DNA from: Conexivisphaerales archaeon
GTDB lineage: Archaea > Thermoproteota > Nitrososphaeria > Conexivisphaerales > UBA164
Length of the DNA: 50,833 nt
Direction of reading: 5' to 3'
NCBI GenBank assembly: GCA_030756715.1
Contig: JAVBJD010000005.1
Coordinates: 1 to 50,833 of the forward strand
How positions within the stretch are numbered: the first letter of the stretch is position 1; each line of letters opens with the position of its first letter. The notes under the pieces are model-generated. The model had not been told where the DNA came from and made no database searches. It worked only from the letters and a program-made list of their open reading frames with translations. Positions 23,141 to 49,879 of this stretch are shown one piece after another. The translations under genes and the position numbers were made by a program.

Positions 23141-24076
23141 TTGAACGAGTTAGAGATCATCGAAATAATTCGAAAAATGTTTGAGGTGCGTGAATATCCT
23201 TTAACAGATGATGTGGCTTATTTGCCAAATGGCTGGGCATATAAAGTCGATATGCTAGTTAAAAGCACAGATGTACCAGAAGGCATGAATGGTTTTCAGG
23301 TAGGAAGGAAATCGGTTGCTGCGGTTCTTTCTGATTTATCGACCAAGGGCGTTAAACCAATATTTATGATGCTGAGTTTCGCATTCCAAACGGGGATAAC
23401 AAACGCGTATATTACAGAGATTCTTAACGGAATAAAACAATTGGCTTCTAAATATAAAATGATTTTAGTCGGCGGTGACGTAAATAAAGCCAATGATACA
23501 GTCATAGATTGCATTATAGCAGGCAAATACAAAAAAAAGGTTTTAAGAAGCGGAGCACGTATTGGTGATAGCGTTTATGTAGCAGGCGATTTTGGATTAA
23601 CAACTATAGGGCTAGATTATCTGCTTAACAAAAAACCAATAGTTAATGAAAAATTAAAAAGTTATGCTTTAAAGGCCGTTTATGAACCTGATCCACCTGT
23701 TAACTTTAATATCGAAGTAATAAACACAGGTTATGTGAGTGCTTCTATGGACTCAAGCGATGGTTTGGCTTATACACTTAATGAAATTGCACAACAAAGT
23801 AACGTGAAAATTGTGATAAATAATTTCCCAATGAGTGAAGAAATTAAAAAATTAATTGAATCTGAAGGTAGAGATCCTTTAAATGATTCGCTCTATGGGG
23901 GAGAAGAGTATCAAATGGTATTTACGTTTAATCAAGAAAAAGATTTTCTTTTGAATAAACTTGCTAAGAAACACAACGTAAAGGTTTTTAAAATAGGCAA
24001 GGTAGAAAATGGAAACGGTGTATTTTTGAGCAACGGTAAAAAAATAGAAAAGAAAGGATGGGTTTTTAATTTTTAG
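23141..24076 (+). CDS. thiL: Thiamine-monophosphate kinase
   Basis: DDVAYLPNG..., VGGDVNKAND, SMDSSDGLAYTLNEIA, LYGGEEYQMVF. Confidence 0.9.
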   Translation: MNELEIIEIIRKMFEVREYPLTDDVAYLPNGWAYKVDMLVKSTDVPEGMNGFQVGRKSVAAVLSDLSTKGVKPIFMMLSFAFQTGITNAYITEILNGIKQLASKYKMILVGGDVNKANDTVIDCIIAGKYKKKVLRSGARIGDSVYVAGDFGLTTIGLDYLLNKKPIVNEKLKSYALKAVYEPDPPVNFNIEVINTGYVSASMDSSDGLAYTLNEIAQQSNVKIVINNFPMSEEIKKLIESEGRDPLNDSLYGGEEYQMVFTFNQEKDFLLNKLAKKHNVKVFKIGKVENGNGVFLSNGKKIEKKGWVFNF

Positions 24077-24485
24077 CTCTTTTGTCTTTTAAAATAATCT
24101 TTTCTATCTTCTTATAGAAATAAACCCATTCTCTACCAACTTTTTTTCTCGAGAGCTCTCCCTTATCATACATTCTTCTTAAATAAGTTGAGATTATAGG
24201 TAACTTAACGCTTGTTTTAAAGCGATCTTCTAACGCGTTTTGAACATCTTTTGAAGTAAACCCATTTAGAGGCATGTCTTTAACTAACGATCTTATTTTG
24301 TCGTATAGATCTTTTTCAGAATTATCTTTCAGATTACCTTCGTTTGAATTATCTGACGATGATAAAAGATCGTATAGTTCCAGAAGCCGCAATACTTTAC
24401 TTTTTTCTATATCCCCCTCTACTTTAAAAGAATATCTTGCACCATTCTCATCTTCAAATTCTAGTTTTATGGCTTTCTTTGGCAA
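24066..24485 (-). CDS. Small winged-helix-like protein divergent from orc1/cdc6
   Basis: C-terminal GFTSKDVQNALEDRFKTSVKLPIISTYLRRMYDKGELSRKKVGREWVYFYKK reads as wHTH; TTG start. Confidence 0.75.
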   Translation of the reverse strand: MPKKAIKLEFEDENGARYSFKVEGDIEKSKVLRLLELYDLLSSSDNSNEGNLKDNSEKDLYDKIRSLVKDMPLNGFTSKDVQNALEDRFKTSVKLPIISTYLRRMYDKGELSRKKVGREWVYFYKKIEKIILKDKRAKN

Positions 24486-24635
24486 GCCTCTTTGATTTTG
24501 TTAACAAATTTAAATAATAAACATATTTAGTAATTTTTGTTAACAAGTTATCAAAGATTCTAAGAATGGTCTATGACCTTAATTAATTATTAACTTATAA
24601 TTGTTTATTTTTAGTTATATAAAAAATTATAGTGG

Positions 24636-24657
24636 CTCCAGTGGAAACAGAGGGGTT
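24636..24657 (+). promoter_or_regulatory. ORB-like element 1: CTCCAGTGGAAACAGAGGGGTT
   Basis: Matches archaeal ORB layout: TCCAGTGGAAAC core followed by a G-string. Confidence 0.9.
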
Positions 24658-24694
24658 AATTTACAGTTAATGATTGATAATAAGGCTGCATTTG

Positions 24695-24716
24695 CTCCAG
24701 TGGAAATAAAGGGGTT
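24695..24716 (+). promoter_or_regulatory. ORB-like element 2: CTCCAGTGGAAATAAAGGGGTT
   Basis: 19 of 22 bases identical to element 1, same orientation, 59 bp downstream. Confidence 0.9.
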
Positions 24717-24780
24717 CGATATCTATATAGTTAAAATATCATATTAACAAAAAATTAACAATTTAAATAATAAACCGCTC

Positions 24781-24799
24781 CACCCCTGTATTTCATCTG
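24781..24799 (-). promoter_or_regulatory. Inverted ORB-like element 3: CAGATGAAATACAGGGGTG on minus strand
   Basis: 15 of 19 matches to the element 2 core on the opposite strand. Confidence 0.7.
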
Positions 24800-24943
24800 T
24801 ATCTATTATTTTTATTAATCAATCATTGTTTTTATTTTTAAAATAATTAAATATCGTTTAAAAAAATTAACTAATAGTAAAATTATCTTTATTTTTACCT
24901 TTTTAATTTCTTTTTTACTTTATTATTTTTGTTAAAAAAGATG

Positions 24944-24961
24944 CAATGGAAATTAAGGGGT
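24944..24961 (+). promoter_or_regulatory. ORB-like element 4: CAATGGAAATTAAGGGGT, 10 bp before the cdc6 TTG start
   Basis: 16 of 18 matches to the element 2 core. Confidence 0.7.
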
Positions 24962-24971
24962 GTAGGGGACT

Positions 24972-26189
24972 TTGTCTGAATTTTTAGATGATATATTTAA
25001 TAAAATATCTTCCGGGAAATCAATATTTAAAAATCGCGAAGTTTTAAACATAGATTACATACCAAAAAGAATACTTTTTAGAGAAGACCAAATAAAAAAG
25101 ATAGGAGAAACGCTTTCACCAATTATTAAAGGTGCTAAACCATCAAATCTTTTACTTTACGGCAAAACTGGAACAGGTAAAACCATGGTAGCTAGATATG
25201 TTATAAATAAGCTTAACGATTATATAAAAGATCAAAACACGATTTTTGTTTATCTTAATTGTAGAATAGATGGAACATTATACAGAGTTCTAAGCGAAAT
25301 TGGAGAGTATATAGGATTAAAAATTCCTTTTACTGGTTTATCCTTAAGCGAAGTAGAAAAAAGAATATTTAACCACCTTGTAGATAAAGGCATAAAACTC
25401 GTTTTGGTTTTAGACGAAATAGATTTTTTGGTTAACAATCCAGCTAAAAGGGATATAGGAAACGATGTACTTTACGATTTTACAAGATATGACAGCATAT
25501 ATAATAAAAGCGGTTCTAACAGCTTCATTACAATAGTAGGTATTTCAAACGATTTAAAATTCATGGAATATCTTGAAGGTAGGGTTCAAAGCAGCCTTAG
25601 ATCAGAAGAGATATTATTTCCGCCTTATACAGTAGAAGAAATAAAAGAAATTTTAAAGGACAGGGTAAAAGAGGCATTTGTAGAAAATTCAGTAAATGAT
25701 GAAATAATAAACCTTATTGCAGCTTATTCAGGCAGTGAACACGGTGATGCAAGGCGAGCCGTAGATCTCCTTAGAGTATCAGGCGAGTTGGCTGAAAGAG
25801 AAGGACGGGATAAAATTTACGAAAAAGACGTGCAGGAAGCATTAAAAAATATAGAGAAGGACAAAGTACAAGAAGCCATTTCATCTTTACCTATACATGA
25901 AAAAGCAGTTATATTTTCTATCGCTACTTTTCCAAACGGCGAGACTACAGGCCATGTTTATTTAAAATACCAAGAAATTTGCAATCAATTAGGTTTGCAG
26001 CCTTTAACGCAAAGAAGAATAAGCGCAATAATAAACGAACTTGACATGTTAGGTTTAGTAACGGCACCTATTATAAATAGAGGTAGGCACGGTAGATCAA
26101 AAAAAGTTCAGCTAACTGTGGATAAGAACCAAATAGTTGGAACGTTAAAAAATGATGAAATATTTAAATTACTTTTTAACTCCATTTAA
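24972..26189 (+). CDS. cdc6: Orc1/Cdc6 origin initiator
   Basis: LLLYGKTGTGKTMVARYV, LVLVLDEIDFL, C-terminal winged helix; TTG start. Confidence 0.95.
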   Translation: MSEFLDDIFNKISSGKSIFKNREVLNIDYIPKRILFREDQIKKIGETLSPIIKGAKPSNLLLYGKTGTGKTMVARYVINKLNDYIKDQNTIFVYLNCRIDGTLYRVLSEIGEYIGLKIPFTGLSLSEVEKRIFNHLVDKGIKLVLVLDEIDFLVNNPAKRDIGNDVLYDFTRYDSIYNKSGSNSFITIVGISNDLKFMEYLEGRVQSSLRSEEILFPPYTVEEIKEILKDRVKEAFVENSVNDEIINLIAAYSGSEHGDARRAVDLLRVSGELAEREGRDKIYEKDVQEALKNIEKDKVQEAISSLPIHEKAVIFSIATFPNGETTGHVYLKYQEICNQLGLQPLTQRRISAIINELDMLGLVTAPIINRGRHGRSKKVQLTVDKNQIVGTLKNDEIFKLLFNSI

Positions 26190-34062: not shown

Positions 34063-34759
34063 TGTTTATCAACCACTCTATGGCTTCTATTATACCCATA
34101 GGTCCCTGTCTTTCAGTTATAATAAGTTTTGTGGTTTCTTCAACCTCATTGGTTTTTATTCTATAGTTTTTGTTAACTAAAAAAGAAAACCCAGATTCTG
34201 CAAACATAGGTTCGTCAACTTCGCTGTCTCCGATGCTAGCAATCTCCTCTTTTTTTAAATTCATTTTTTCTGCAACATATTTTAAAGCAACCCCTTTATT
34301 TACATTAACGCTTGATAGGTGATATGCCACACCGCTGTCAAGTATTTTTGCTTTATACCCGTTTTCTTTAAGTATCCTGTTTGCAGCATTTATATCAAAA
34401 TTTCTTTCAAGCAAAATTTCTGTAAGCCTTGGCATCCTTTGATTTATATTTATTTTTTCAATGTTTTTTGACAGAAACTCATAAGCCAGTAAAGAATCAG
34501 CATAGTCACCAAAAATCTTTATTTTTGTTGGTTCATTAAAAAATATCACTCCGCCATTTTCACTTATACCGAACTTAGCAAAACCTAAAAACTTTGAAAG
34601 AGTATACGTTTCAAAAACGCTGCGTCCTGTAGCTAGAACAACTTGCAAACCATCCTCTTGCAGTTTTCTTAGCAAAAAAGTCGCATCGAGGTTGATACGA
34701 CCATCTTTTTCAGTCAAAGTTCCATCTATATCGATCGCTAATAATTTGATCACGCGCAA
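34034..34759 (-). CDS. HAD phosphatase, archaeal phosphoglycolate phosphatase-like
   Basis: LLAIDIDGTLTEKDGRI; VVLATGRSVFET; SIGDSEVDEPMF. Confidence 0.85.
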   Translation of the reverse strand: MRVIKLLAIDIDGTLTEKDGRINLDATFLLRKLQEDGLQVVLATGRSVFETYTLSKFLGFAKFGISENGGVIFFNEPTKIKIFGDYADSLLAYEFLSKNIEKININQRMPRLTEILLERNFDINAANRILKENGYKAKILDSGVAYHLSSVNVNKGVALKYVAEKMNLKKEEIASIGDSEVDEPMFAESGFSFLVNKNYRIKTNEVEETTKLIITERQGPMGIIEAIEWLINNDLIPYRTK

Positions 34760-34861
34760 TACTATTTTATATTAATATTTATTGATAACTAATAAAAGCT
34801 CACGTTTTTAACTCGCAATTGGTCAGAAAAATTTATAAAAACAAGATGCTTATCAAAATAA

Positions 34862-34973
34862 GCCGGCCATAGGGGTAGGGTCCTACCCGGTCTCACCCGA
34901 ACCCGGAAGTAAAACCTACCACCGCCGCTGTGTTAGTGAGGTGCGCAAGCCCTCGCGAAGCAGTGGTGCCGGC
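34862..34973 (+). rRNA. 5S ribosomal RNA
   Basis: GCCGGC...GCCGGC terminal helix; TCACCCGAACCCGGAAGTAAAAC conserved 5S region; ends approximate. Confidence 0.9.
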
Positions 34974-34985
34974 GCCCTATAATTT

Positions 34986-49803: not shown

Positions 49804-49879
49804 AGCGGGGTGGGGGAGCCAGGTCTACCCCGCCGGGCTCATAACCCGGAGATCGGTGGTTCAAATCCACCCCCCGCTA
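49804..49879 (+). tRNA. tRNA-Met(CAU), initiator type, no intron, CCA not encoded
   Basis: Full cloverleaf by hand: AGCGGGG/CCCCGCT acceptor, CCGGG-CTCATAA-CCCGG anticodon arm, GGTGG-TTCAAAT-CCACC T arm; A1-U72 and GGG/CCC pairs are initiator features. Confidence 0.95.

Follow-up and report, generated by a model that had tools for sequence, protein, structure and literature searches.

Introduction

Archaeal replication origins have usually been described in terms of ORBs, an unwinding element and Orc1/Cdc6. Orc1 binds ORBs with a defined polarity, and facing ORBs direct MCM to the element that lies between them (PMC12141716). For Sulfolobus, a further essential origin motif, ucm, and the protein that binds it, UBP, a saddle-shaped beta-hairpin DNA binder, were reported in 2025 (PMC12141716). 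Nitrosopumilus maritimus (1645 kb) has a single mapped origin (PMC5333045, PMC4010727), the mapping being that of Pelve et al. 2013 as cited in PMC4010727, and the Nitrosocaldus origin has been placed by analogy with it (PMC5797428).

The locus described here lies in a window of 50,833 nucleotides (the whole stretch of DNA that was analysed) from a Conexivisphaerales archaeon. It shares with Sulfolobus oriC1 an adjacent Orc1-1-type gene, polar ORBs, two inverted ORBs flanking an AT-rich element and a short motif inside that element (PMC12141716), but it has an extra tandem ORB 59 bp away and its motif is a TTAACA repeat, which is likened to ucm by position and not by letters. With haloarchaeal oriC1 it has in common the site next to orc1 and the inverted ORBs with a G-string round an AT-rich element, whereas the neighbour genes are others there and the extended G-string is specific to halophiles (PMC4010727). 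ORB origins beside cdc6 are already known and the ORB part of this locus is ordinary; what we add to the sequence-only reading, which had placed an origin here, is a divergent winged-helix gene and the TTAACA repeats, apparently a second and undescribed repeat of these origins.

Results and Discussion

Four ORB-like boxes beside orc1/cdc6

The interval between the winged-helix gene and orc1/cdc6 measures 486 bp and holds several copies of the ORB, with its CCAGTGGAAA-type core and G-string, next to an orc1/cdc6 gene, as is characteristic of archaeal ORB-type origins. Boxes were scored against the consensus CTCCAGTGGAAANNNAGGGGTT at 19 positions, and all four boxes of the earlier reading were recovered at its coordinates and strands, two of them perfect and two degenerate:

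24636–24657, plus strand: ORB1, CTCCAGTGGAAACAGAGGGGTT, 19 of 19 scored positions, conserved in relatives
24695–24716, plus strand: ORB2, CTCCAGTGGAAATAAAGGGGTT, 19 of 19 positions, 59 bp downstream of ORB1, a conserved spacing
24717–24780, no strand: candidate unwinding element (putative function) between the facing ORB2 and ORB3, 18.8% GC
24781–24802, minus strand: ORB3, degenerate, facing ORB2, 14 of 19 positions, with an inverted box at the same place in relatives
24803–24940, no strand: stretch richest in A and T (10.9% GC), probable site of the orc1 promoter
24941–24962, plus strand: ORB4, degenerate, 15 of 19 positions, separated from the orc1 start by 9 bp; other families have it as a third ORB(+)
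24972–26189, plus strand: orc1/cdc6, 405 aa, TTG start (aligned), PF09079 and PF22703, related to 2qby_A and 2v1u_A

In a Markov copy of the window no match of 15 or more is expected, and about 1.0 match of 14, a score also reached at 34289 and 3594 in the window. ORB3 alone could therefore be a chance match, and it is credible through its conservation only and not through its own score. The pattern CCAGTGGAAANNNAGGGGTT with up to 3 mismatches gave 3 matches in the window against 0.10 expected. Throughout the assembly (1,263,322 bp in 138 contigs, 91.4% complete), CCAGTGGAAANNNAGGGGT with 0–2 mismatches matched boxes 1, 2 and 4 only; at 3 mismatches there were 8 matches in all, the same number as for the reversed-pattern control (8). 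A scatter of the same boxes through the genome, which the sequence-only reading had set against its own interpretation, was thus not seen, the boxes being confined to the origin in this 91.4% complete assembly, and no second ORB cluster was found in its 138 contigs.

By sequence, the orc1/cdc6 gene beside the boxes is of the Orc1-1 type. The closest solved relatives of its product are Cdc6 homolog 1 (2qby_A, E 8.6e-100) and 2v1u_A (E 5.6e-94), and the closest named ones come from MAGs labelled Thaumarchaeota UBA160 (90% identity), Nitrososphaerales KMA_Bin22 (87%) and Thaumarchaeota EvPrim.Bin21 (85%). At the position of the TTG start, genome G002 carries an ATG. The same genome as the window also has a second, distant orc1-like gene on contig C10, with no ORB nearby and no TTAACA cluster but only scattered TTAACA, and a second origin at that gene was rejected on these grounds.

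ORB2 (+) and ORB3 (-) face each other across 24717–24780, ORB3 being weak alone but conserved. This spacer had been proposed as the AT-rich unwinding element; its AT-rich composition holds, but the stretch between boxes 3 and 4 is richer still. A scan for sigma-70 promoters was set aside as not applicable to archaea. As for ORB4, the ribosomes that translate orc1 may also use its G-string as their binding site. That this box is such a site and not an ORB we consider unlikely: GGGGTG does end 9 bp before the start codon and the core is degenerate in several relatives, but the third ORB(+) lies farther from orc1 in other families and the core is intact (CCAGTGGAAA) in G006 and G009. For these two reasons, a ribosome binding site was rejected as the sole reading of box 4.

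The predicted origin in relatives

Box sequence, orientation and position are kept beside the Orc1-1-type gene in relatives. Members of the genus, and likewise G007 (Orc1 identity 60%), have the order ORB(+), ORB(+), ORB(-), ORB(+), orc1, with single boxes degenerate in some of them. The direct boxes are spaced 59–62 bp apart in families f1, f5 and f7 and 61–68 bp in f3; no direct box pair was seen in f2. Several rearrangements were also observed. In f3 (L019-L022; G012:C1:1593211-1593902 and 1-176), a single inverted block carries both the winged-helix gene and the tandem ORBs, reversed with respect to orc1. The two tandem boxes have thereby lost their facing position towards the inverted box, and f3 offers a natural case of a rearranged origin. 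Extra DNA separates the ORB pair from the inverted ORB in UBA160 (some 260 bp compared with close relatives; L041, -543 to -178 of orc1) and in G009 (about 1.5 kb; L147, 754 to 2296). Three incomplete genomes of genus g2 in the same family (G005, G008, G010) showed neither an orc1 match nor the winged-helix gene; the origin contig may be absent from these bins, or both genes may have been lost.

An orthologous locus was found at the record start of G050, a single contig of 1,645,259 bp that is putatively N. maritimus, where the second box ends 89 bp before the record end and orc1 starts at 146. This locus agrees with the window in gene order, in the tandem boxes, in TTAACA-N5-TTAACA and in having the winged-helix gene. 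The G050 locus differs, like the rest of its family f7, in having the core GGAGTGGAAA in place of the window's CCAGTGGAAA, and in inverted and promoter boxes that are visible but weak, being more degenerate than those of the window. In G050, from which 20 segments of 20 kb were sampled (one of them largely masked), keto and AT asymmetry both had their best breakpoint at 0–41 kb (p 0.010 and 0.019 by permutation), while GC skew gave no significant signal (p 0.27), so that two of the three measures are supportive of an origin. GC skew showed no clear pattern in G012, and in the window its cumulative minimum fell near 35 kb, where gene orientation changes, and not at the origin. Rfam places a 5S rRNA at 34859–34977 (+) and a tRNA at 49804–49879 (+) of the window.

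It could be argued that the boxes only regulate orc1 and that replication starts elsewhere, as ORB4 abuts the orc1 start codon and dormant orc1-linked origins exist in haloarchaea (PMC4595724). We regard this as very improbable because four boxes round an AT-rich element exceed what regulation needs, the assembly has no other ORB cluster, not even near the orc1-like gene of C10, and the layout matches that of the locus taken as the N. maritimus origin (PMC5797428). The claim of an origin beside orc1/cdc6 is supported by boxes that are conserved beside an Orc1-1-type gene and confined to this place, and by the orthologous locus in G050. As judged from these comparisons, the locus is very probably an oriC1-type chromosomal replication origin of a thaumarchaeon.

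A divergent winged-helix gene

On the far side of the boxes from orc1/cdc6 lie a second gene and two palindromes, and a further repeat falls inside the candidate unwinding element:

24066–24485, minus strand: single-copy gene for a winged-helix protein of 139 aa, divergent from orc1/cdc6 across the origin
24499–24506, no strand: TGTTAACA palindrome just upstream of the winged-helix gene, aligned in relatives
24538–24545, no strand: TGTTAACA palindrome in the conserved stretch TTTTTGTTAACAAGTTATCAA, kept in the genus and almost intact in G007
24744–24760, plus strand: TTAACA-N5-TTAACA, 11 bp period, recurring at the same place in relatives

A structure model built from 4 sequences (mean pLDDT 66, but 83–86 over most of the winged helix) predicts an N-terminal beta-beta-alpha part and a C-terminal winged helix. 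No match of the protein exceeded curated cut-offs (PF03965, 22.0 against 22.6 bits; TIGR02698, 20.5 against 121.95), and among solved structures the closest, whether by sequence or by fold, are winged helices of a generic kind, with no fold match reaching E 0.001. To the BlaI/MecI/CopY repressors it bears a weak likeness in recognition helix and wing, but it falls below the curated cut-offs, has a different N-terminal part and is sited at an origin. A Pfam tail-chaperone match was set aside, being below cut-off and seen in few members only. The modelled winged helix is not the saddle-shaped beta-hairpin fold of UBP, and the protein would therefore be at most an analogue of UBP and not a homologue; the linked gene finds no match in f26, a Sulfolobus-like family. 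Among open papers, we found none that names this gene.

Of the 60 relatives plus the window's own genome, 35 are at least 90% complete, and the gene was present in every one of these. Both genes share a contig in 46 class genomes, and by a hand comparison of the orc1 and winged-helix match lists they lie no more than 2 kb apart in all 46, divergently in 42 and co-directionally in the 4 of f3. In the phylum as a whole, where genomes were grouped as having or lacking the gene by one profile search, it occurred in 136 of 200 genomes. Outside the class it was divergent from orc1 in 33 of the 58 same-contig cases, with a gap of 586–975 bp, and this linkage spans ten families (f10, f14, f15, f18, f24, f25, f30, f36, f39, f43). 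Nine of these ten show ORB(+), ORB(-), ORB(+) in the same interval, the exception being f36 with (-)(-)(+). Since the first ORB(+) is single outside the class, the tandem pair has the appearance of a first box that was duplicated within the class.

TTAACA and TTCACA repeats

The origin interval of 486 bp is the densest stretch of the window for the TTAACA hexamer, with 7 matches where 0.93 are expected and where none of 2000 Markov copies had more than 6. Each TGTTAACA palindrome scores twice in such a count, so that sites are fewer than matches. TTAACA-N5-TTAACA, which places a motif inside the unwinding element as in the ucm/UBP system, has one exact match in the genome and none for the reversed control. 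In the class, TGTTAA/TTAACA was the most enriched hexamer within 900 bp upstream of orc1 (163 against 25.3 expected, in 20 of 20 loci), ahead of every ORB hexamer. Between the facing ORBs, 65 repeats were counted against 7.3 expected, with at least one in 24 of the 29 gene-linked loci. The commonest repeat spacing in orc1 intervals was 11 bp, and of 51 TTAACA-N5-TTAACA matches in 61 genomes about 19, by hand count, lay in the orc1 interval, which takes up very little of any one genome.

TTCACA led among the hexamers outside the class, with 45 occurrences against 5.7 expected where the gene is linked and 51 against 9.4 where it is present but unlinked, the unlinked signal coming from f16, f21 and f35. 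In 17 loci from genomes without the gene (the Sulfolobus-like f26, plus f23, f29, f45, f37, f11 and f34) neither hexamer was enriched (7 against 10.6 and 4 against 5.7). These expectations come from a first-order Markov null, loci of one family are not independent of each other, and the comparison of groups was made once the repeats were already known from the class. Gene presence and repeats both follow lineage, which makes lineage a possible confounder. Five families (f12, f31, f33, f38, f40; L148-L151, L161, L162, L165-L167) keep the gene with no repeats and no facing ORB pair upstream of orc1, and their origin may lie elsewhere or be differently built. Recognition-helix residues were inspected against the choice of TTAACA or TTCACA, and no consistent link was seen.

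Repeats were weakly enriched upstream of unlinked winged-helix genes (25 against 11), so that autoregulation there was set aside as weakly supported. Just upstream of such genes we observed TTAACA..TTCACA..TTCACA (f40, L206) and TGTGAATTGTGAA (f38, L193 and L204), as autoregulation would predict. The palindrome TGTTAACA also occurs away from the origin, at 32 sites genome-wide against 11 for the control, and its binder may therefore have other sites. One such place, G000:C50:41343-41358, carries the tandem palindromes TGTTAACATGTTAACA.

Two other explanations of the repeats bear on these data. That they are binding sites of a second Cdc6 paralogue would fit the second orc1-like gene of this genome, but G050 has one Cdc6 match and yet the same repeats, and the C10 locus has no repeat cluster, which leaves this idea with hardly any probability. 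The other deserves about even confidence, and takes the locus as a plain ORB origin in which TTAACA is bound by another protein (a general nucleoid protein, or a DNA methyltransferase acting on GTTAAC) or marks easily opened DNA, the winged-helix gene being kept for other reasons. It agrees with the excess of TGTTAACA away from the origin, with the persistence of the gene in five families without repeats at orc1, and with the binding of Sulfolobus ucm by a general nucleoid protein (PMC12141716). It is harder to reconcile with repeat enrichment at 0 of 17 orc1 loci in gene-lacking genomes, with the control of composition by the Markov null and reversed patterns, and with a gene linkage that spans ten families outside the class.

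Proposed mechanism and significance

In the mechanism that we propose, Orc1/Cdc6 would bind the ORBs with fixed polarity, and ORB2 and ORB3, facing each other over the AT-rich element, would promote MCM recruitment and duplex opening there. Roughly six helical turns upstream of ORB2, ORB1 probably brings in a further Orc1. ORB4 abuts the orc1 start and probably serves in the control of orc1 by its own product. The TT(A/C)ACA copies of the unwinding element and of the winged-helix gene's promoter would be bound by a second factor, for which the product of that divergent gene is the likeliest candidate and which would assist or time initiation; gene linkage and the co-occurrence of gene and repeats suggest this role. 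Our tentative proposal, made with slightly less than even confidence, is that the winged-helix protein binds the repeats and helps or times initiation, in the way that UBP works at ucm in Sulfolobus.

Since a candidate protein, candidate sites and natural controls can all be specified, the binding is directly testable. On the same evidence it is quite possible, if a little short of an even balance, that the protein is an undescribed origin factor in much of Thermoproteota, including ammonia oxidisers, which would bind TT(A/C)ACA, act in helicase loading, release or timing, and take the place of UBP. If this is true, much of the phylum would use a different motif and a different protein where Sulfolobus has ucm and UBP. 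Among these lineages would be the ammonia-oxidising archaea, which are abundant and about whose control of initiation little is known.
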